This document shows positions 30,113-39,745 of a stretch of DNA of 64,000 bases, piece after piece. Under the pieces are notes generated by a model, which did no database searches, was not told the DNA's origin, and saw only the letters and a list, made by a program, of their open reading frames with translations. The position numbers and the translations under genes were made by a program. The first letter of the stretch is position 1, and the number at the start of each line of letters is the position of its first letter. Where the stretch lies: positions 1,208,120-1,272,119 of the forward strand of contig NZ_LMSE01000002.1 in the NCBI RefSeq assembly GCF_001428065.1, read 5' to 3'. Source of the DNA: Nostocoides sp. Soil756. Lineage in GTDB: Bacteria > Actinomycetota > Actinomycetes > Actinomycetales > Dermatophilaceae.

Positions 30113-33100
30113 TCAGGCGGCCGGGAGCTCCCCGTCCGAGGGAGTGTCCGGCGGCAGGGCCGAGAGGTCGCCCCCGGTGCGCTCGAGCAGGAGCCGGGCG
30201 GCGGCGCGGCCGGCCTCGACCATCCGGTCGAGCTGGTGGAACTCGAGGAGCCCGACGCCCATGGACGACGGCCCGAGGACCCACGCCCCCTGCCGCCGCG
30301 CGGCCTCCACGGCACCCCCACTGCCGATCATCATGGTCCGCATCAGGGTGTCCCCCAGGGCCGGGACGGGTGGCCGCCCCGGACGAGAGCGGGCACCGCC
30401 GGTCCCGATCGCCACCGCGACCACCGGCCCCTCGTCACGCTGCACGAGGAGGTCGGTCGGCAGCGCGTCCAGGACGCTCCCGTCGACGAGCAGGCGACCG
30501 TCGTCGGTCGGGATGGGAGCCCAGAGCACGGGGAGGCGGCAGGAGGCCAGGGTGGCGTCGACGATGCTCCCCCGGTCATGGACCTGGCGCCGCCGGCTGG
30601 TGAGGTCGACGCTGACCATGCGCAGCTGCCGCGGCAGCCCCTCCAGGACCTCGCCGGCCCCGAGGACGCGCTCGACGGCGTGGCGCACCCGGGAACCCTT
30701 GGAGACGGAGGCGATGGGAGCGCGCCAGTCACCGAACGGCCGCCGGCGGACGAACTCCTCGAAACACAGGTCCTCCAGCGTGCCACCGTCCGCCCCGGAC
30801 GCGTAGACGGCGGCCACGATGGCTCCGAGGCTCGACCCGGCCACCCGGTCGACGTGCAGCCCCGCCTCCTCGAGCTCGCGGATGACCCCGATGTGCGAGA
30901 AGGCCCGTGCGCCACCCGCACCCAGGACCAGGCCCAGGGACCGGCCGGCGAGCCGGTCGGCGAGCGCGCGCACCCCGAGCGTCAGGTCCCCCTCGACCCA
31001 GGTGAGCCGCCAGGCGTCGGTCGCCCGCACCCACTCGGCACGGTGGGCGGCCGTGACGCCGCCGCCCACGAGCACCACCTCGGGTCGCCGACCGCCCACG
31101 GACGTGTGCTCCGTGACCACCGGGGCGTGCGCGTCGGCCACCAGCACCACGACGTCGGCCTGCCGGACGCAGAAGTCGCGCCAGGCCGCTCCGCCCGGTT
31201 CGTCCGCCTCCCCGGGTCCGTCGGGCGCGACGAGCACCACGCGGTCGTGGTCCACCTCCGCGCGAGCCAGCCCGTCGGGACCGACCCGTCCCAGCAGCAC
31301 CACGTCGAGGTGATGGCGCAGGCGTGCCGTCAGCGCCTCTGCCACCTCGACCGCCGGCGCCGCGCGGTGCGCCGCGACCACCGCGATGACGCTCGGGCGT
31401 TCCGGCGGCGGCGACGTCGGCCCCGGGGCCGCGGTGCGTAGCCGTTCCGCGACCTGCCCGAGCAGGTGCCGCGAGGCCGACGCGTCGGAGGCCAGCACGC
31501 CCTCGACCGCGTCCCGCGGCAGCTCCAGGACGGTGCTGTCGCGACGGGCCCGGACGGTGGCCGAGCGCGACTCGCCCGTCAGCAGCGCCAACTCGCCCAG
31601 CACCTCGCCCGGCCCGACCTCGCGCACGACGCGCGGCCCGACGAGGATCTCGAGACGGCCCCGACGCACGACGTACAAGGACCCGGGCGGGTCGCCCTCG
31701 CGGACGAGGTCCTCACCGGCCAGGACCTCGACCAGGCGGGAGGCCTCCTCGAGGCGCTGTCGCGCGGCGGGGGGCAGCGCTGCGACCAGGGGTACCGCCC
31801 CCAGGTCGGTCGACTCCGCCGACGGGGAGGTGGACCGGAGGCGCCACGACGGCGGGGGGTCGGGGAGGTGCAGCGCCGCCGGCCGGTCGGCGTCGCCCGT
31901 CTCCTGGTCCAGGGCGGGGCGCAGCCGGCCGAGGGGGAGGGACAGGAGCGCGACGGCGACGAAGGCCGCGACCGAGAGCAGCCAGCCGTCACGGAAGGCC
32001 GCCACCGCGGTCGCCGGGGTCGGGTTGCCGATGACGACCACGAGCACCGCGATGCCCAGCACGCCGCCCACCTGCCGCGCGGCCGAGCTGATGGCCGACG
32101 CCGTGGCGTAGCGGCCGCCGGGGACCTGGGACAGCGAGGCGCTGCCGAGGAGCGGGAGGGTGGCTCCCACCCCGATCCCGCTGAGCAGCTGGCCGGGCAT
32201 CCACTCGGCCCAGAACGCCGGCGCCAGCCCCACCCGCTGGTGGTACCAGAGGTAGGCGCCGGCCCACACGAGGGCGCCGGGCACCACGAACCAGCGGTAG
32301 CCGAAGCGCTGCGCGAGCGGCCCCAGACGGGACGCCACGACGGCCGCGACGACGGCGCCCGGCACCAACGCCAGGCCGGCCTCCAGCACCGCGTAGCCCC
32401 AGACGTACTGCAGCCACAGGACGTTGGTCAGCAGGTACGCGTAGAAGCCGAAGCCCGCGAGCACGGAGGCGACGGACCCGACGCTGAAGGAGCGGACCCG
32501 CAGCAGCGCCGCGGGGACCAGCGGCGAGCGGTGACGTCGGGAGCTGACGCCGAACACCCCGAAGAGGACCAGCGCGCCCACGAAGGACCCGAGGACGCCC
32601 GCGCTCAGCCAGCCCCAGTCCGACCCCTGGATGATGCCCAGGTTGAGCAGCCCGATGGCGGCGGCGAGGGTGGTCGCGCCGAGCAGGTCGGGAACGACTC
32701 GCCGCCCGGGCGCCCGGCTCTCGATCAGGTGGCGGCGCGCCAGCCACAGGGCCACCAGGCCGAAGGGCAGGTTGACCAGGAAGGCCCAGCGCCACCCCCA
32801 GTACTCGGTCAGCGCCCCGCCGATGGGAGGCCCGAGGCCGGCGGCCACCGCGGCGGACGCGCCCCAGAGGCCGATGGCGTGGGCGCGCCGCTCGGCGGGG
32901 AAGGCCGCGACGACCAGGGCCAGGGAGGCCGGGACCAGCGCGGCAGCGCCGAGGGCCTGCAGGACGCGCGCGGCGACCAGCAGGTCGACGGAGGGGGCGA
33001 GCCCGCACAGCACCGAGGCGAGGGTGAAGACGAGGGCCCCACCGACGAAGGACCGCCGGCGGCCCAGGAGGTCGGTGAGGCGTCCGAAGACGATGAGGAA

Positions 33101-33349
33101 CGCCGCGAAGACGATGTTGTACGCGTTCAGGACCCAGGACAGCTCGCTGATCCGGACCGTGGGGAAGCTGGCGCGGATCGAGGGGAACGCCACGTTGACG
33201 ACGGTGGCGTCCAGGAAGGCCAGGAAGGCTCCGAAGCAGGCGATCAGGAGGATGCGCCCGGGGGGTGTACGCGGTGTGGACGCGGGGCGGGCGCGGGCGC
33301 TCGGTGCGCGTGAGAGATCGTCCTGCAGGCCCCTCGTCGCGCTCGGCAC
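30113..33349 (-). CDS. MFS transporter / cyclic-nucleotide-binding / patatin phospholipase fusion
   Basis: 1078-residue three-part protein. Residues about 32-475 are a 14-TM DHA2-type (EmrB/QacA) drug efflux permease with FLDATVVNVAFPSI and GRLTDLLGRRRSFVGG. Residues about 520-635 form a cNMP-binding domain (LVREGDPPGSLYVVRRGRLEIL, GPGEVLGELALLTGESRSATVRA). A Rossmann-like region (653-790) follows. Residues 804-980 form a patatin domain with oxyanion GAGGAR (810-815), nucleophile Ser840 in GSSLG and catalytic Asp956 in DGS (usually DGG). The last two thirds resembles bacterial neuropathy-target-esterase-like lysophospholipases. GTG at 33349 has only a distant AGGAG, so the start is uncertain by a few codons. 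The MBL gene lies 54 bp upstream on the same strand. Confidence 0.88.
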   Translation of the reverse strand: MPSATRGLQDDLSRAPSARARPASTPRTPPGRILLIACFGAFLAFLDATVVNVAFPSIRASFPTVRISELSWVLNAYNIVFAAFLIVFGRLTDLLGRRRSFVGGALVFTLASVLCGLAPSVDLLVAARVLQALGAAALVPASLALVVAAFPAERRAHAIGLWGASAAVAAGLGPPIGGALTEYWGWRWAFLVNLPFGLVALWLARRHLIESRAPGRRVVPDLLGATTLAAAIGLLNLGIIQGSDWGWLSAGVLGSFVGALVLFGVFGVSSRRHRSPLVPAALLRVRSFSVGSVASVLAGFGFYAYLLTNVLWLQYVWGYAVLEAGLALVPGAVVAAVVASRLGPLAQRFGYRWFVVPGALVWAGAYLWYHQRVGLAPAFWAEWMPGQLLSGIGVGATLPLLGSASLSQVPGGRYATASAISSAARQVGGVLGIAVLVVVIGNPTPATAVAAFRDGWLLSVAAFVAVALLSLPLGRLRPALDQETGDADRPAALHLPDPPPSWRLRSTSPSAESTDLGAVPLVAALPPAARQRLEEASRLVEVLAGEDLVREGDPPGSLYVVRRGRLEILVGPRVVREVGPGEVLGELALLTGESRSATVRARRDSTVLELPRDAVEGVLASDASASRHLLGQVAERLRTAAPGPTSPPPERPSVIAVVAAHRAAPAVEVAEALTARLRHHLDVVLLGRVGPDGLARAEVDHDRVVLVAPDGPGEADEPGGAAWRDFCVRQADVVVLVADAHAPVVTEHTSVGGRRPEVVLVGGGVTAAHRAEWVRATDAWRLTWVEGDLTLGVRALADRLAGRSLGLVLGAGGARAFSHIGVIRELEEAGLHVDRVAGSSLGAIVAAVYASGADGGTLEDLCFEEFVRRRPFGDWRAPIASVSKGSRVRHAVERVLGAGEVLEGLPRQLRMVSVDLTSRRRQVHDRGSIVDATLASCRLPVLWAPIPTDDGRLLVDGSVLDALPTDLLVQRDEGPVVAVAIGTGGARSRPGRPPVPALGDTLMRTMMIGSGGAVEAARRQGAWVLGPSSMGVGLLEFHQLDRMVEAGRAAARLLLERTGGDLSALPPDTPSDGELPAA

Positions 33350-33403
33350 GCGGCGAAATGTACTCCTGGCGAGAGCCGAGCACGACAGGCCGTCCAGGGG
33401 CGC

Positions 33404-34213
33404 TCAGACCTGTAGAACCATGCCCTCCCGGGCGGTGACGACCTCGAGGTCGGTGGGGACGACCTGGGCCATGGTGTCGAGGGCGTCGTCCTCACGGTGC
33501 GGGCCGTGGTGGAAGAGCACCAGCCGGCGAGCACCGACCCGCTCCCCCAGGTGGACGGCATCGTCGACGGTGGCATGCCCGTAGTCGCGCGCCCGGGGGC
33601 GCTCCCACTCGAGGAACTGCGCGTCGTGCACCAGGACGTCCACCCCCTGCAGAGCCGCGAGGAGCTCGTCGGACACCCCCACGGCCGGAGCGTGGTCGGG
33701 CACGTACGCCACGCGTCGCCCGTCCTCCTCCAGCACGTAGCCGAAGGTCCGCCCACCCTTGTGCTCCACGTCGACGGCGGTGACCCCGAAGCCCTCGACC
33801 ACGCTGTTCCCCGCGTCGATCGCGTCGAAACGCCAGTCCCCGACCAGCCCCTCGGGCTCGATGGGGAACCCCGGGGGCGACATCAGCTGCGCGAGGAGGT
33901 CGCGCCCGCTGGCGCCCCCCTGGGCCGGGACGTGCACGGTGACCCGGGCGTCCTCGCGGTCGCCGGCGGCGAAGAACGGCAGCCCCTGCACGTGGTCCCA
34001 GTGCAGGTGGCTCACCAGGACGCTGCCGCGGTACGGCTGCCCGCCGAGCATCGCGGACGCGGCGCGGATCCCGGTCCCGGCGTCCAGGAGCAGGACGGGC
34101 CGCTCCCCACCACGAGCCGTGACGGCCACGCAGGCGGTGTGGCCGCCGTACCGGACGAACTGGGGGCCGGGGGCACAGGTCGAGCCGCGGACCCCCAGGA
34201 AGGTCAGCTGCAC
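33404..34213 (-). CDS. MBL-fold hydrolase, possible cyclic nucleotide phosphodiesterase
   Basis: 269-residue MBL hydrolase. It opens MQLTFLGVRGSTCAPGPQFVRYGGHTACVAV, a start common in the Lactamase_B_2 group that includes RNase Z-like and class II cAMP phosphodiesterase-like enzymes. Metal ligands are visible in LVSHLHWDHVQGLP, the Asp in VLVHDAQF, and the late His in LFHHGPHREDD. The start is GTG at 34213 with GGAGG nearby. It lies directly upstream of the cNMP-binding fusion gene and divergent (108 bp) from a cyclase gene. That context suggests, but does not prove, a role in cyclic nucleotide turnover. Confidence 0.8.
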   Translation of the reverse strand: MQLTFLGVRGSTCAPGPQFVRYGGHTACVAVTARGGERPVLLLDAGTGIRAASAMLGGQPYRGSVLVSHLHWDHVQGLPFFAAGDREDARVTVHVPAQGGASGRDLLAQLMSPPGFPIEPEGLVGDWRFDAIDAGNSVVEGFGVTAVDVEHKGGRTFGYVLEEDGRRVAYVPDHAPAVGVSDELLAALQGVDVLVHDAQFLEWERPRARDYGHATVDDAVHLGERVGARRLVLFHHGPHREDDALDTMAQVVPTDLEVVTAREGMVLQV

Positions 34214-34321
34214 GTGGACCTCCGTCGGGACACGATCCGCGGTCGCCGGCGTGGCGGTGCTGGACCGTGCGGGATACTACAGCGCGGGTCGCGCGAGCGC
34301 CCGTCGACCGCGAGGAGCGAT

Positions 34322-37300
34322 GTGACCGACCTGCGCCGCCACCTCCCGCCGCTGGTCCTGCGGTGGGACGACGAGGCACCCGGTGCGTCCTGGCGCGAGG
34401 TGGACGGCACGCTCGTGTTCGCCGACGTGTCGGGGTTCACCGCGCTGACCGAGCGGCTCGCTCGCCGGGGCCGCATCGGCGCCGAGGAGATCGTCGAGAC
34501 CCTCAACCGGGTCTTCGGGCCCATGCTGCGCCTCAGTGCCGCCCGCGGCGGCGAGATGCTCAAGTTCGGCGGCGACGCCATGCTCTTCCTCTTCCGCGGC
34601 CCGGGCCACGCCGAACAGGCCTGTGACGCAGCGGTGGAGATGCGCCGCTCGCTACGGGACACCGCCCCGCTCCCGACGGCCGTGGGACGGCTGCGCCTCT
34701 CGATGTCGGTGGGCGTGCACTCGGGCCCGGTCCACCTCTTCCTCGTGGGCTCGCCCACCCGCGAGCTGCTGGTCCTGGGGCCGGCGGCCTCCGCCACGGC
34801 GGCGGCCGAACAGGCGGCGGACGCGGGCCAGGTGGTGGTCACGCCCGCCACCGCGGGCCGGCTGTCCCCCGGCTCGTCGCGGCCGCGGGCCGACGGGGCC
34901 CTCGTCCTGCGGCGCCGGGTGGCGCACACGGTGCCCTCCGGCGCCGCCGGGATGCCGCCGGCCCCGGCGGCACGCCTCGCCGGACTCTTCCCCCGCAGCC
35001 TCGGCGAGTACCTCGACCCGGGCGCCCCCGAGCCCGAGCACCGGCTCGCGACGATCGCCTTCGTGCGCTTCTCGGGCACCGACGGCGTCTTCCACGACCA
35101 CGGGCCGGACCGGCTGGCGACGATGCTCGACGCCACCGTGAGCACCGTCGAGGCGGCCCTGGCCGTCGAGGGGGTGACCCTGCTGGCCACCGACCTCGAC
35201 ACCGACGGCGTCAAGTTCTTCCTCGGCTCCGGGGTCCCGGTGGCCGGGGAGGACGACGAGGGACGGATGCTGCGTGCCCTGCGCCGGATCGCGACGTCCG
35301 ACCTCCCCCTGCCGGTCCAGCTGGGGGCCAACCGCGGCCATGTGTTCGCGGCCGAGCTGGGGGTCCCCGAACGGGCCGCGTACTCGGCCATGGGCGACAC
35401 CACCAACACCGCCGCCCGCATCATGTCCAAGGCCCCACCGGGGACCGTCTTCGCGCACCCGGGCGTGCTCGAGCACTCCCGCAGCGTCTTCGCGACCGCA
35501 CCGGTCGGGCCGTTCGCGATGAAGGGCAAGGCCGTGCCGCTGCACCTCGCCACCGTCGGCGAGGAGACCGGGAACCGGGACCTGCGCCACAGCGGGCGCC
35601 TGCCGTTCCTCGGGCGCGACGCCGAGCTGGCACAGGTCACGCGGATGCTCACCGACGCGGCCGCGGGAGCCGGCGGGGTCCTCACGGTCGAGGGCGCGAC
35701 CGGGTCCGGGAAGTCGAGGCTGGTGCGCGAGGCCTCGGCGCTGGCCGCCCCCACCGCGCGGCTGCTGCTGCTGCACGCCGAGCCCTACGGGGTCTCGAGC
35801 TCCTACCGGGTGCTGCGCGACCCGCTCCGGGCACTGCTGGGCGTCACGCGCGACACGCCGGAGCGGATGGGGGCGGCGGTGCTGGAGACCCTGCGGCGGG
35901 TGGCTCCCGAGCTGCTGCCGATGGCACCGCTCCTGGCCGACGTCGTCCAGGTCGTCGTCCCGCCGACCGTCGAGGCGAGCCGCATCGACCCGGCCTACCA
36001 GCCCGAGCGGGTGGCCGACGTCGTCGTCACCCTGCTGGAGCGGCTGCTGCCGGGGCCCCTGGCCGTGCTCGTCGAGGACGCCCACTGGGCTGATGGTGCC
36101 TCTGTCGCCCTCCTGGGCCGGGTGGCGGCCGCGGCCGGCTCGAGGCCGTGGGCGCTGCTCGTCGTGCGACGTGAGGGGCCTGGGGGGTTCGTCCCCGAGG
36201 GCGGGGCACTGCTGACCCTGCCCCCTCTGCACCCCGCCACCGTGGAGCAGCTGGTCATCGCAGCCACCCGCGAGCACCCGCTGCGTCCGCACGAGGTCGC
36301 GGTGGTGGCGCGGCGGGCTGCCGGCAGCCCGCTCTTCGTCGAGGAGGTCACCGAGATCATCCGCGGCGGCGGCGCGATCGACACCCTGCCGGACTCGGTG
36401 CAGGCGGCCATGGCGGCCCAGATCGACCGCCTCTCCCCTCGGCTCCGCCAGGTCCTGCGGCACGCCTCGGTGCTCGGTCGCAGCTTCCGTCGCGAGATCA
36501 TCACCGCGACCCTGGCGGTCGACGGCACCCCGATCGACCCCACCGTGCTCGAGGGTCTGCGCGCCTTCCTCGAGCCCGACGGGCCGGCCCGGCTCGCGTT
36601 CCGCAACAGCCTGGTGCGCGACACTGCGTACGAGGGACTGTCGTTCCGGGTCCGCGCCCGGATCCACCAGATCGCGGGCGAGGTCCTGGAACGGATGAGC
36701 ACCGACCTCGACGCCGACTCCCCCACGCTCGCCCTCCACTTCGACCGCGCCGGAGACCACGCCCGGACGTGGCGCTTCGCGCAGCGGGCGGCGGCCCTCG
36801 CCCGGCGTTCGTTCGCGAACGCCGATGCCGCCGACCTCCTGGTCCGGGCGCTGGCCGTGGCGCCCTCGCTCCCCGACGTCACCGACCGTGACCGCGCCGA
36901 CCTCTGGACGGCCGTCGGTGAGCTGCGCGAGCTGGCCGGGATGTTCGAGGAGTCGCTCGAGGCCTACCGGCGCGCCGCCCGGCTCGTCCGCGACGACCTG
37001 CTGGCGCACGCCGCCCTGCTGGACCGGCAGGCCATCGTGCTCCTGCGGACCGGCCGGCCGACCACGGCCCTGCGGGTGGTGGGGAGGGCCCGGACCCTGC
37101 TGGGCGCCGCGGGTGACGCCGGGGCGGCGACCCTGGTGCGGCTCGACAACCTCACGGCCCGGGTGCGGATCGAGCAGGAACGCCCGACCGAGGCGTTGCG
37201 CTGGGCCGAACGTGCGGCCGAGCGCGCGCGGGAGGTGGGTGACCGCGAGACCCTGGTACGGGCCCTGATCCTGCTCGACAGCATCGAGATCTCGATGGGC

Positions 37301-38104
37301 GTCCCGGGTCTCGGGGCACGCCACCTCGAGGCGCTCGGCATCTGCGTCGAGGAGGAATGGCGCCCGCTCGAGGAGACCGTCCGCGGCAACCTGGGGACCA
37401 TCGCCTACTACGCGGGCCGCTGGACCGAGGCCGCCGAGTGGTACGGCGGCGCCCGCCGCGTGGCGCTCGAGGTCGGCAAGGACTTCGGCGCCGCCGAGAC
37501 GGCCGTCAACCTGGCCGAGCTGCTCATCAACCAGGGCCGGCTCGACGAGGCCGAGGTGCTCCTCGAGGACGCACTGCGGGTGCTGCGGGCCGCGGGGGCG
37601 CTGTCCTTCCTCGCCCAGGGCGAGATCCAGCTCGCCCGACTCCACCTCACCCGCGCCGACCACGAGAAGGCCGAAGCCCTCGCGGCGCAGGTCGCCGCGA
37701 CCCTGCTGTCCCTCGGCAAGCCCACGACGGCGCTGGAGGCGTCGCTGGTCCGGGCCGACGCGATGATCCGCGAGGGGCAGCCCGACCAGGCCCTGGAGAT
37801 CCTCGATGCCGCCGAGCGGGAGGCCCGCGCCGAGGCCGCCGCCTCCCTCCCCCGGCTCTGTCACCAGCGCGCGCGGGCCCTCCTGGCGCTCGGTCGCTTC
37901 GCCGAGGCCGACGAGCTGGCCGAGACCGGGCTCGTCGCCGCGCGCGAGCAGGACCTGCCCTACGACGAGGCGCTGCTGCTGCGGGTGGTGAGCCGGGTCC
38001 GCCGGCACCAGGGCGACGTCGAGGGGTCGGACCAGAGCTGGGCCCGGGCCGAGGCACAGCTCGCCGCGCTGGGCGCGCGCGCCTCCGTCCCGGGCGTGGG
38101 ATGA
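34322..38104 (+). CDS. Tandem class III nucleotide cyclase with AAA ATPase and TPR region
   Basis: 1260-residue cytoplasmic protein. Cyclase domain 1 (about 28-180) has both metal Asp candidates, Asp35 in VFADVSGFT and Asp85 in MLKFGGDAML. Domain 2 (about 240-400) keeps the Asn/Arg pair in MGDTTNTAARIM but reads FVRFSGTD where the first metal Asp is expected. An AAA/STAND-type NTPase follows, with Walker A GATGSGKS (458-465) and Walker B AVLVEDAHWAD (581-591). From about residue 780 to the end are TPR-like helices. GTG at 34322 has GAGGAG 6 bp upstream; the frame is open 825 bp further, but that part is antisense of the MBL gene. Similar multi-domain cyclases occur in mycobacteria. Confidence 0.87.
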   Translation: MTDLRRHLPPLVLRWDDEAPGASWREVDGTLVFADVSGFTALTERLARRGRIGAEEIVETLNRVFGPMLRLSAARGGEMLKFGGDAMLFLFRGPGHAEQACDAAVEMRRSLRDTAPLPTAVGRLRLSMSVGVHSGPVHLFLVGSPTRELLVLGPAASATAAAEQAADAGQVVVTPATAGRLSPGSSRPRADGALVLRRRVAHTVPSGAAGMPPAPAARLAGLFPRSLGEYLDPGAPEPEHRLATIAFVRFSGTDGVFHDHGPDRLATMLDATVSTVEAALAVEGVTLLATDLDTDGVKFFLGSGVPVAGEDDEGRMLRALRRIATSDLPLPVQLGANRGHVFAAELGVPERAAYSAMGDTTNTAARIMSKAPPGTVFAHPGVLEHSRSVFATAPVGPFAMKGKAVPLHLATVGEETGNRDLRHSGRLPFLGRDAELAQVTRMLTDAAAGAGGVLTVEGATGSGKSRLVREASALAAPTARLLLLHAEPYGVSSSYRVLRDPLRALLGVTRDTPERMGAAVLETLRRVAPELLPMAPLLADVVQVVVPPTVEASRIDPAYQPERVADVVVTLLERLLPGPLAVLVEDAHWADGASVALLGRVAAAAGSRPWALLVVRREGPGGFVPEGGALLTLPPLHPATVEQLVIAATREHPLRPHEVAVVARRAAGSPLFVEEVTEIIRGGGAIDTLPDSVQAAMAAQIDRLSPRLRQVLRHASVLGRSFRREIITATLAVDGTPIDPTVLEGLRAFLEPDGPARLAFRNSLVRDTAYEGLSFRVRARIHQIAGEVLERMSTDLDADSPTLALHFDRAGDHARTWRFAQRAAALARRSFANADAADLLVRALAVAPSLPDVTDRDRADLWTAVGELRELAGMFEESLEAYRRAARLVRDDLLAHAALLDRQAIVLLRTGRPTTALRVVGRARTLLGAAGDAGAATLVRLDNLTARVRIEQERPTEALRWAERAAERAREVGDRETLVRALILLDSIEISMGVPGLGARHLEALGICVEEEWRPLEETVRGNLGTIAYYAGRWTEAAEWYGGARRVALEVGKDFGAAETAVNLAELLINQGRLDEAEVLLEDALRVLRAAGALSFLAQGEIQLARLHLTRADHEKAEALAAQVAATLLSLGKPTTALEASLVRADAMIREGQPDQALEILDAAEREARAEAAASLPRLCHQRARALLALGRFAEADELAETGLVAAREQDLPYDEALLLRVVSRVRRHQGDVEGSDQSWARAEAQLAALGARASVPGVG

Positions 38105-38138: not shown

Positions 38139-39515
38139 TCAGTAGCGCATCCCGGCGTCGCCGTAGACGTAGACGACGTCGTGCGAGCTGACGGTGTCGG
38201 GGTCGCCGTCGACCGGGCGCGCGCTGCGCGAGACGACGCAGGCGAACTGCGTGCCCGCCAGGTCCGGCTCCTGGTCCATCGCGGCCGTGATCGACCCCGC
38301 GGGGTAGCCGGCGAAGCGGCCGGTGTCGTCGAACGTGGGGTTCGGACACCACCCGAGCGTCACCGTGGTGCCGGGAGTGGGGTACTCGTAGTCGACCTTC
38401 AGGTCGGGAAGGGCCGTCGTCCCGGCCGTCTCCGGGAAGCGCCAGGTGAGGTCCCACAGGAACTGCGCAGTGGTCTGGCTGTCGAGCGGCTTGAGGAACT
38501 GCGCGTAGGCAGGTGCGGTGTCCAGGGAGTACGGCACCGGGACACAGGAGCTGGCGTCGGCGTTGCCGAGGCGGTACACGCTGACCTGCGGCGCGTCGGC
38601 GGACGCGGCGATCGTGCGCGTCGAGGCCCCGCAGTCGAGCACACCGTCGGCCACCTGGACGATCGAGGCGTTCGGCGTCGACAGCGGCGACTGCGGGTCG
38701 ACCTGGCCGTCACCGCCGCCCTCGAGGCTGAAGGAGCCGCTGACCGCCGTCAGGGTGAGCTCGTCGAACACGATCCCGTCGTCGGCACCGAGCCAGGACG
38801 GCGTGCTGACCGGCCAGCGGCAGTTGTCGCCCACCCCCGCGTCGGGGCCGGAGTCGGCACTGCTGGTGCAGTTCGTGACGGCCGTCGCCGTCACCCCTCC
38901 CGGGAGCGGGGCGGGTGCGATGATCGAGGAACCGCTGCGCAGCTCGAAGACGCCGGTGACGGCCCCCTTGAGCTTCGCGGTCGCCATGATCTGGGCGCCC
39001 TGCTTCAGCTCCACGTCGAGGGAGGCCGCGGACGCCACGACGTCGGGGCCGAGGGCGCTGCGCAGCGCCGCCCCGAGGGAGACCCTCAGGCTCTCGGACG
39101 GCGAGCCGACCTGGTAGCACGAGACGCCGCTCTTCTTCTCCTTCACCCCGATGGAGCCACTGGCGAAGGACGCGAGGGACTCGCTGTAGCTCTTGCCCGT
39201 GGACCCGGAGAACGAGAGGTAACGCGAGGGGGCCGCGCCCTGGGCCATCCCGCAGTCGGCGGCCTGCGCGAGCGTCTGGGCCGCGCCGGTCCGGCCCCCG
39301 GGCCCGTTGAGCGTGATCGAGGGGCTGGTGCCGGTGTCGAGGGCGACCCACCTCGTCGAGGACGAGGCGGTGCCGACCGCTGCGGCGCTCGCGGCGGGCG
39401 AGAGCGTCGTGGCGGCGTCGGGACGGGGTAGGTGGAGCACGGCCAGGGCCACGGGGAGGACCCCCACGGCGGTCGTGGCGGCCACGACCTGGACGGCTCT
39501 GCTTCTGGTGCTCAT
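38139..39515 (-). CDS. Unknown exported protein
   Basis: 458-residue protein with an N-terminal signal-like segment (MSTRSRAVQVVAATTAVGVLPVALAVLHL) and an extracytoplasmic remainder rich in Ser, Thr, Gly and Asp. Cysteines come in widely spaced pairs (DCGMAQG, VSCYQVG, TNCTSS, NCRWP, LDCGAST, SSCVPVP, GWCPNP, FACVV), suggesting disulfides. TNCTSSADSGPDAGVGDNCRWP and QTTAQFLWDLTWRFPE look like beta-sandwich surface-protein sequence. No domain was recognised. ATG at 39515 has GGAGGG upstream; the longer open frame is antisense noise. It faces the cyclase gene convergently, 34 bp apart. Confidence 0.7.
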   Translation of the reverse strand: MSTRSRAVQVVAATTAVGVLPVALAVLHLPRPDAATTLSPAASAAAVGTASSSTRWVALDTGTSPSITLNGPGGRTGAAQTLAQAADCGMAQGAAPSRYLSFSGSTGKSYSESLASFASGSIGVKEKKSGVSCYQVGSPSESLRVSLGAALRSALGPDVVASAASLDVELKQGAQIMATAKLKGAVTGVFELRSGSSIIAPAPLPGGVTATAVTNCTSSADSGPDAGVGDNCRWPVSTPSWLGADDGIVFDELTLTAVSGSFSLEGGGDGQVDPQSPLSTPNASIVQVADGVLDCGASTRTIAASADAPQVSVYRLGNADASSCVPVPYSLDTAPAYAQFLKPLDSQTTAQFLWDLTWRFPETAGTTALPDLKVDYEYPTPGTTVTLGWCPNPTFDDTGRFAGYPAGSITAAMDQEPDLAGTQFACVVSRSARPVDGDPDTVSSHDVVYVYGDAGMRY

Positions 39516-39745
39516 GGGGGTCCCTCCGCGCGGTGCACACCGGCGAGAGAGAGCCGGGCTCGCCACGGACGGCGCCCCCGACGGCCTTCCCCTGCGACGG
39601 CCTGCCAGGTAGTGGTTCCATCGGCCGTGGTGGCACGGCTCGACGGCCAGCGCCCACGACAGGTCGTGCGCGGGCCCGCTCATGCTAGGGGCGCGGTGTG
39701 ATGGGCGCCATAGCCCGAACGAGCCATGTCGAAGGTTGCGGCGCG
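39516..39745. other. 230-bp gene-free interval
   Basis: This lies between the start of the exported-protein gene and the stop of the htdX-like gene, both on the minus strand. It holds the GGAGGG ribosome-binding site of the former. No clear promoter hexamers, operators or terminator hairpins were recognised. Confidence 0.5.

Follow-up and report, generated by a model that had tools for sequence, protein, structure and literature searches.

A putative modular make-sense-break cyclic-nucleotide cassette with an MBL-fold hydrolase as its constant part

The common picture of bacterial cAMP and cGMP signalling is of a single diffuse pool fed by many cyclases, with few enzymes dedicated to its removal. 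Lysophospholipases of the NTE/PNPLA6 type carry one or more CNB domains upstream of a patatin lipase, patatin-like phospholipases are marked by a GxSxG nucleophile and a DG[G/A/S] aspartate, and the mycobacterial proteins Rv3239c and Rv3728 presumably join MFS, CNB and patatin parts in that order. In human sAC (ADCY10), which we take to run from C1-C2 into an ATPase and TPR region, K334 and T405 (Thr/Asp) are assumed here to be the adenine-recognition residues. One account gives the MBL fold together with a [T/S]HXHXDH motif as the signature of atypical class II PDEs, with X positions that tend toward hydrophobic or small residues (PMC9293780). MBL-fold hydrolases of cNMPs also exist, as exemplified by phage Apyc1 (PMC9117128). 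A search of the open-licence PMC literature by title and abstract opening returned no published account of the cassette proposed below, although one may exist in print.

The window, a 64,000-nt stretch of DNA from Nostocoides sp. Soil756 to whose full length all coordinates refer, contains three neighbouring genes whose ORFs, spacings and domains are as the first-pass annotation had given them, judged by the ORF list and Pfam. They are arranged as follows.

30113 to 33349, minus strand: MFS-CNB-patatin fusion, candidate reader/effector, 1078 aa
33350 to 33403: 54-bp gap from the MBL gene to the fusion gene, both on the minus strand
33404 to 34213, minus strand: MBL-fold hydrolase, putative phosphodiesterase and eraser, 269 aa
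34214 to 34321: 108-bp divergent spacer between the MBL and cyclase genes
34322 to 38104, plus strand: tandem class III cyclase with AAA/TPR region, candidate writer, 1260 aa

We favour, with somewhat better than even confidence, the reading that these genes are one variant of a modular make-sense-break cyclic-nucleotide cassette of which the MBL is the constant part. The AAA/TPR part of the cyclase, which we label STAND-like, would serve as a sensor, and the fused two-domain class III cyclase would produce a cyclic mononucleotide. This messenger would bind the CNB domain of the membrane MFS-lipase fusion and thereby switch its lipase and/or permease activity, and the adjoining MBL enzyme would hydrolyse the messenger and reset the circuit. 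We infer that the MBL acts as a phosphodiesterase, and likewise which messenger is used and whether it turns the lipase and transporter up or down. The circuit need not be insulated, because an Rv1339-like MBL and a second class III cyclase gene lie elsewhere in the genome.

The cyclase matches Pfam models for two PF00211 domains, AAA_16 and TPR, with C1 at residues ~20-190, C2 at ~235-412, a Walker A motif (GATGSGKS) of AAA_16 at 458 and TPR thereafter, which is the order that we presume for sAC. Its closest solved relative is human sAC, in an alignment that spans both cyclase domains, and it shares with ADCY10 and sAC-like bacterial cyclases the C1-C2 tandem, the C1 metal Asp pair (D35 and D85) and the C2 Asn/Arg transition-state pair (N362 and R366), all four residues being invariant in 16 aligned rows. 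It differs from ADCY10 in having Asp295 in place of Lys334 and Ser355 in place of Thr405, and position 295 is variable in the family, with Asp in most rows and otherwise Asn, Gly or Lys. Membership of the class III, sAC-like fold family stands despite these changed base-reading residues, which are ambiguous as a guide to ATP or GTP; the sequence does not support an assignment of ATP specificity.

The MBL protein matches Lactamase_B_2 (PF12706, 94 bits) and belongs to the clan of RNase Z and the atypical class II PDEs. Eight residues, H69, H71, D73, H74, H151, D173, H213 and H235, which include the metal ligands, are invariant in 20 rows. The [T/S]HxHxDH motif, here SHLHWDH at 68, is present in 79 of 81 MBL rows, and the Trp at its second X contrasts with the tendency described in PMC9293780. 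With the atypical class II PDEs Rv1339, YhfI and C. glutamicum CpdA the protein shares the fold (YhfI-like), PF12706, the motif, the metal ligands and a similar length. It differs in scoring 44.6 bits against the curated cyclic-nucleotide PDE model NF041851, far under a cut-off of 400 that is very strict: the Rv1339-like gene of the same genome (L079) reaches 213.6, and all 14 control genomes, C. glutamicum among them, fall short of that cut-off. That gene, a distinct and better match, led us to reject Rv1339 orthology for the window MBL. Linkage to cyclase and CNB genes is seen here for this MBL family. The MBL is probably a phosphodiesterase and the constant part of the proposed cassette. 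That the messenger is cAMP is not established, given both this score and the Asp at the sAC adenine Lys position.

The third protein matches MFS_1, cNMP_binding (72 bits) and Patatin (88 bits), in the order DHA2-type MFS permease, CNB domain, linker domain and patatin lipase, as we presume for Rv3239c and Rv3728. Its MFS part scores 245.2 bits against the DHA2/EmrB model TIGR00711, above the cut-off of 230.2. Across 20 aligned rows, 18 of them distinct (L086/L063 and L089/L066 are identical pairs), G585-E586 and R595 of the CNB domain are invariant and supply the predicted ribose-binding Glu and phosphate-binding Arg, which bears out the first-pass assignment of a cNMP-binding domain. S840 and D956, the predicted Ser-Asp dyad of the lipase, are likewise invariant in these rows. 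Fold searches match the CNB domain to the cNMP-bound domains of MlotiK1, PKA and PKG, and the patatin domain to PlpD (TMt 0.82), with the CBASS effectors CapV and CapE also close. Relative to NTE/PNPLA6, the window protein differs in its fusion to a DHA2-type MFS permease and in its intact phosphate-binding cassette.

The 54-bp gap between the co-directional MBL and fusion genes is compatible with a single transcript, and a scan of 33200-34500, with a promoter model of one sigma-70 type, gave no promoter or terminator match: there is neither a terminator-like site in this gap nor a sigma-70-like site in the 108-bp spacer. A Crp/GlxR-like site in the spacer was also rejected, as there is no TGTGA-N6-TCACA at up to two mismatches. 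The trio lies between conserved housekeeping genes, with thrS and MaoC-FabG at its two ends, a setting that recurs at L082 (Phycicoccus) and L083 (Ornithinibacter) and is absent at L081 and G030. The whole 3.47-Mb genome has only two class III cyclase genes and three CNB genes (E <= 0.001), one of each flanking the MBL, and a chance grouping of the trio is therefore unlikely. A candidate fourth co-directional gene 3' of the cyclase, the plus-strand ORF 38181-39431, was discarded although it is conserved in genome G006, because its codon-position GC shows that it is not the frame that codes; the coding signal matches the minus strand.

A set of 58 genomes, counting the window's own, was searched for the MBL (identity of 60% or more), the sAC-like cyclase (59% or more) and a full-length MFS-CNB-patatin protein; all three occur together in five genomes, and none of them in any other. 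The MBL and cyclase genes are adjacent and divergent in all five, and the fusion adjoins the MBL in three of them. In a class-level sample of 394 genomes (360 good, 138 genera; three family searches taken as one set), the MBL is found in 45, the cyclase in 29 and CNB-patatin in 18. Pairs exceed expectation throughout, in counts that are partly due to shared ancestry: MBL with cyclase in 15 genomes (3.3 expected; Fisher 2e-8), MBL with CNB-patatin in 9 (2.1 expected; Fisher 3e-5) and cyclase with CNB-patatin in 8 (1.3 expected; Fisher 8e-6).

These data bear on the best-surviving alternative, which we regard as unlikely, that the MBL and cyclase form a cNMP make-and-break unit and the MFS-CNB-patatin protein is a loose neighbour that answers a general cAMP pool. 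In its favour, the CNB-lipase lies on a different contig from the MBL-cyclase pair in G011 and G030, and 9 of the 394 genomes of the class-level sample have a full-length or partial CNB-patatin homologue but no detected MBL. Against it stand the excess of MBL/CNB-patatin co-occurrence just given and the adjacency of the two genes in differing orientations across lineages, co-directional in the window genus and convergent at five loci (L086, L088, L089, L090 and L092). At L130 a patatin fragment lies at the contig start, upstream of the MBL and on the same strand.

To return to the modular reading, the neighbourhoods of MBL homologues were surveyed at loci picked by the MBL only, namely the best 80 of 349 confirmed ones, a sample that leans to close relatives; these named loci (L081-L160) overlap the genome samples, L082 for instance being G011:C5, and the two sets were never summed. 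Within 5 kb of the MBL, 54 of the best 80 loci have a class III cyclase gene and 61 a CNB gene; 47 have both, 68 either or both and 12 neither, counts to which shared ancestry again contributes. The 706 kb of sequence near the MBL contain 55 cyclase genes and 65 CNB genes, and the 517 kb farther out 3 and 4, densities that differ ~13-fold and ~12-fold, respectively, with the reservation that the HMMs were trained on the domains of these very loci and iterated, so that other subtypes may be under-detected in the far flanks. Pfam agreed with the HMM calls in sampled cases (cyclase 2/2; CNB 6/6 and 3/3), L094 among the CNB cases standing at 24.9 bits, under the 27.5 cut-off. The 12 partnerless loci include a supported five-member clade, L154-L158. 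Its member L157 sits on a contig of 4 kb, and at L154 and L155, both checked, a flavin reductase adjoins the MBL.

Partners also change identity. Typed within 6 kb, with rows lacking a partner of the kind in question omitted, the cyclases are sAC-like or of the response-regulator type, and the CNB partners among the loci listed include N-domain-CNB, MFS-CNB, SulP-CNB, glutaminase-CNB and CNB-patatin, the N-terminal domain in the first having no Pfam match. On the MBL tree for the best 80 loci, the type of cyclase switches no fewer than 8 times and that of the CNB partner no fewer than 12, and the linkage is therefore not one inherited block. The labels are rule-made: a quick tree with the first labels gave 11 cyclase and 14 CNB changes, a careful tree with corrected labels 8 and 13, and this became 8 and 12 once L136 and L151 had been reassigned to the N-domain-CNB family, to which their proteins can be aligned.

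Relatives often retain this putative eraser while the writers and readers next to it vary, which suggests that the cassette may be a general one. The trio that the first-pass annotation proposed as a functional unit thus holds as a grouping, in co-occurrence and in the 68 partnered loci, and fails as a fixed set: the exact adjacent trio is confined to 3 of the 12 genomes sampled from the genus, counting that of the window, and what is conserved much more widely is MBL linkage to cyclase or CNB genes. The CNB-lipase, taken there as the sensor of the unit, becomes only one among several interchangeable sensors. A bolder extension, to which we give a little less than even credence, is that one MBL subfamily marks general swappable cassettes across Actinomycetota and into Chloroflexota/Dormibacterota MAGs, each with a dedicated eraser and with a cyclase (sAC-like or response-regulator type) and a CNB effector peculiar to it, the effector being a lipase-permease, an MFS protein, a sulphate permease, a glutaminase or an uncharacterised N-domain, and that these would form insulated local circuits, possibly with a messenger other than cAMP.

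It is improbable, and more so than the loose-neighbour alternative, that the MBL processes RNA or other phosphoesters in an RNase Z-like or PhnP-like manner unrelated to cNMPs, its clustering being historical. RNase Z, PhnP-family proteins and YhfI are its nearest folds, and it scores 65 bits against the RNase Z model TIGR02651, below the cut-off of 293. The H151-D173 spacing is 22 residues, as against ~71 in RNase Z 1y44 (D211 by alignment), a comparison in which we take H140 to be a metal ligand and presume the placement of the exosite. An RNase Z role was rejected on this lack of exosite-length spacing and on the patchy distribution: presence in 5 of 58 genomes at the above identity argues that the MBL is not housekeeping. 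The enrichment of CNB and cyclase genes beside the MBL in the best 80 of 349 loci, and the swapping of partners around it, also count against this alternative.

The least probable reading is a Pycsar-like antiphage system, in which the sensor cyclase would make a cNMP alarm, a patatin effector that damages membranes would respond to it and the MBL would be the off switch. The locus shares a class III-fold cyclase and a CNB effector with Pycsar (PycC plus CNB effector), PADLOC reports domain-level matches to PycC at 37 bits and to PycTIR at 57 bits, the lipase fold is near CapV and CapE and effector swapping is, in our own comparison, akin to that of defence systems. We nevertheless do not call it Pycsar, because these PADLOC matches are weak and single-domain and the locations are housekeeping ones, L081 and G030 excepted. 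The PycC models matched have 226-486 positions, far fewer than the 1260 aa of the cyclase, and a candidate PDE lies inside the cassette. Partners elsewhere are lipase, transport or metabolic proteins, among them glutaminase, SulP and MFS transporters, which are not obvious killing effectors.

If writer, reader and eraser do travel together while writer and reader are swapped, the cassette would be a compact system in which to study insulated cyclic-nucleotide circuits. It would also provide a hypothesis for the stimulus of MFS-CNB-lipase proteins, and candidate functions for an MBL subfamily that we could place in no curated family and for the CNB-fused N-terminal domain.

The first-pass annotation had proposed that three neighbouring genes make, sense and break one cyclic nucleotide (cNMP), and their open reading frames have exactly the coordinates it assigned:

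30113-33349, minus strand: fusion of 1078 aa with a DHA2-type MFS permease, a cNMP-binding (CNB) domain, a linker and a patatin lipase (Pfam)
33404-34213, minus strand: metallo-beta-lactamase (MBL) protein of 269 aa, Lactamase_B_2 (Pfam)
34322-38104, plus strand: cyclase of 1260 aa with two Guanylate_cyc stretches, AAA_16 and TPR repeats (Pfam)

All parts of this cassette fall in known families or superfamilies. The closest solved relative of the cyclase is human soluble adenylyl cyclase (sAC), with both cyclase domains covered using a 16-row profile. The metal-binding Asp pair (D35, D85) is retained in C1 and the Asn/Arg pair (N362, R366) in C2, all invariant across the 16 aligned rows, and a single competent composite site, like that of sAC, is expected. 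Adenine is read by a Lys in sAC; in the same alignment Asp295 occupies this position and Ser355 that of Thr405, so the base of the product is not predictable. In the fusion, the MFS part scores above the TIGR00711 cut-off, and the CNB phosphate-binding residues whose absence was to have spoken against cNMP sensing, E586 and R595, are kept in 20 of 20 aligned rows (18 distinct), as are S840 and D956 of the lipase. When the CNB-lipase half was modelled (pLDDT 83), its CNB part resembled cyclic-nucleotide-bound CNB domains and its lipase part PlpD and the CBASS lipases CapV and CapE.

The most likely mechanism, which we consider probable, is a circuit in which a signal would act on the AAA/TPR part of the cyclase protein, the cyclase would produce cNMP, the CNB domain would gate the lipase, the permease or both, and the MBL protein would reset the system; its rivals partly overlap, so the likelihoods we attach to the readings do not sum to one.

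A profile search of genome contigs with the MBL alignment gave 349 confirmed loci, and around the best 80, selected by MBL alone, cyclase and CNB genes were found by HMMs built in this analysis. Among these 80, a class III cyclase lies within 5 kb of MBL in 54 and a CNB gene in 61; 47 loci have the two together, 68 have at least one and 12 lack both. The corresponding figures for the 49 with 5 kb on both sides are 35, 39, 32 (both) and 42 (at least one). The 706 kb closest to MBL contains 55 cyclase genes and the more distant 517 kb contains 3; for CNB genes the counts are 65 and 4. Conservation of the neighbourhood holds for MBL with a cyclase and/or CNB gene, but the exact three-gene order occurs in only 3 of 12 genomes sampled in the genus (G000-G011). 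Besides these three, G011 keeps the MBL-cyclase pair and carries the fusion on a separate contig. All three genes lie within about 10 kb, in a looser arrangement, at loci L090 and L095 of the best 80, while L130 carries a patatin fragment, MBL and a single-domain cyclase at a contig end that cuts the locus. In five of the 12 partnerless loci (L125, L126, L129, L157, L160) the sequence on one or both sides of MBL falls short of 5 kb. The supported clade L154-L158 is unlinked throughout, L157 sitting on a 4-kb contig, and a flavin reductase adjoins MBL in the two clade loci checked (L154, L155).

Two main architectures are found among the best 80 loci. In architecture A the sAC-like tandem cyclase, MFS-CNB-patatin or both accompany MBL, and the order may be divergent, co-directional or convergent. 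Architecture B, assigned by rule-made labels (6 kb) to 36 of the 81 rows that the loci and the window make up, has a receiver-type cyclase (receiver domain by Pfam in both checked, L114 and L101) divergent from an N-domain-CNB protein whose gene closely precedes or slightly overlaps MBL. This N-terminal domain, about 210-240 aa long and marked by an SLSWIPSE-like start and by FPRHW, is joined to a C-terminal CNB in proteins encoded beside MBL at L114:8992-9700, L101:8868-9700 and further loci, and was seen in 8 aligned proteins and 4 more N-termini; the rule labels it in 44 of the 81 rows, which are MBL-chosen loci plus the window, and the two proteins scanned have no Pfam match outside CNB. 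Further CNB partners are MFS-CNB and small CNB proteins (L094, L098). At L143:10840-13029, plus strand, a SulP-type sulphate permease with STAS and CNB adjoins an MBL-tandem cyclase pair, and a glutaminase with a C-terminal CNB lies one gene from the cyclase of a cyclase-MBL pair at L081:2969-4807 and L085:2204-4696, both plus strand, which suggests cNMP control of glutaminase. A flavin amine-oxidoreductase-like gene (L114:10834-12279, plus strand) overlaps the MBL gene end, and genes of similar size follow MBL in L110, L117, L118, L134 and L136.

On the 81-row MBL tree there are at least 8 changes of cyclase type and at least 12 of CNB type, fewer than in 20 label shuffles on that tree (16-20 and 18-20), so partner types are partly inherited yet repeatedly swapped. 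That the roles persist while the parts are exchanged is the best argument for a functional unit. A loose MBL-cyclase pair plus a general cAMP effector is an unlikely rival, and an MBL protein that acts on a substrate other than cNMP is less likely still.

Genome content was also compared. Two class III cyclase genes and three CNB genes are present in the window's genome (3.47 Mb). One of the CNB genes encodes the fusion; on reading their translations, the others appear to encode a Crp-like regulator and a second, MFS-type transporter-CNB fusion of about 600 aa. The latter (L163, about 83429 on contig G000:C3) lies far from the trio and is alignable with other MFS-CNB proteins. Across 58 genomes including this one, MBL at 60% identity or more, cyclase at 59% or more and the fusion in its full length all occur in the same five (G000, the window's own; G006; G009; G011; G030) and in none other at those levels; below them are an MBL at 33% in G008, a cyclase at 34% in G028 and shorter matches elsewhere. 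A second fusion, at 57%, is present in G009. In all five, MBL and cyclase are divergent neighbours, and the fusion adjoins MBL in three. A class sample of 394 genomes, the window's among them, gives threshold-dependent counts of 45 for MBL, 29 for tandem cyclase and 18 for CNB-patatin, with overlaps of 15 (3.3 expected), 9 (2.1) and 8 (1.3) and Fisher p values, shared ancestry ignored, of 2e-8, 3e-5 and 8e-6; 9 of the 18 CNB-patatin genomes have no detected MBL.

In the MBL protein, H69, H71, D73, H74, H151, D173, H213 and H235 do not vary across 20 aligned rows. The nearest fold to its AlphaFold2 model (pLDDT 88) is RNase Z, the top ten matches include a PhnP-family diphosphatase and B. subtilis YhfI, and yeast PDE1 ranks 50. 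In RNase Z two metal ligands, H140 and D211 (D211 from alignment), bracket the exosite; the spacing of these ligands is 22 residues in MBL versus about 71 in RNase Z, which makes a tRNase role unlikely. PMC9293780 gives [T/S]HxHxDH as the signature of atypical class II cyclic-nucleotide phosphodiesterases (PDEs), and 79 of 81 MBL family rows contain it. MBL falls under the curated cyclic-nucleotide PDE cut-off, a weak test because 0 of 14 control genomes, C. glutamicum included, reach it. A separate Rv1339-like gene lies elsewhere in the window's genome.

In the window, G006 and G009 the trio is flanked by thrS and a MaoC-FabG pair, which also flank the MBL-cyclase pair in L082 (Phycicoccus, G011:C5) and L083 (Ornithinibacter); these flanks were not found around the pair in L081 (Actinotalea) or G030. 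In this family the site is a stable chromosomal one rather than an obvious mobile island, which counts against pure defence. A Pycsar-like role, suggested by the likeness of the lipase model to CapV and CapE, is the most doubtful reading. The Actinotalea MBL (78% identity) is as similar as that of Phycicoccus (77%), so between-family transfer is possible. Between cyclase and MaoC, window 38139-39700 has a coding signal fitting the minus strand, convergent with the cyclase; the ORF that encloses it matches nothing in Pfam or NCBIfam.

Judged by title and abstract opening, no paper listed in searches of open-licence literature describes the cassette. Hobbs et al. (PMC9117128) mention homologues of Apyc1 in bacteria and suggest that these may have a role in host cNMP signalling; the cassette makes that role testable for a different MBL subfamily.
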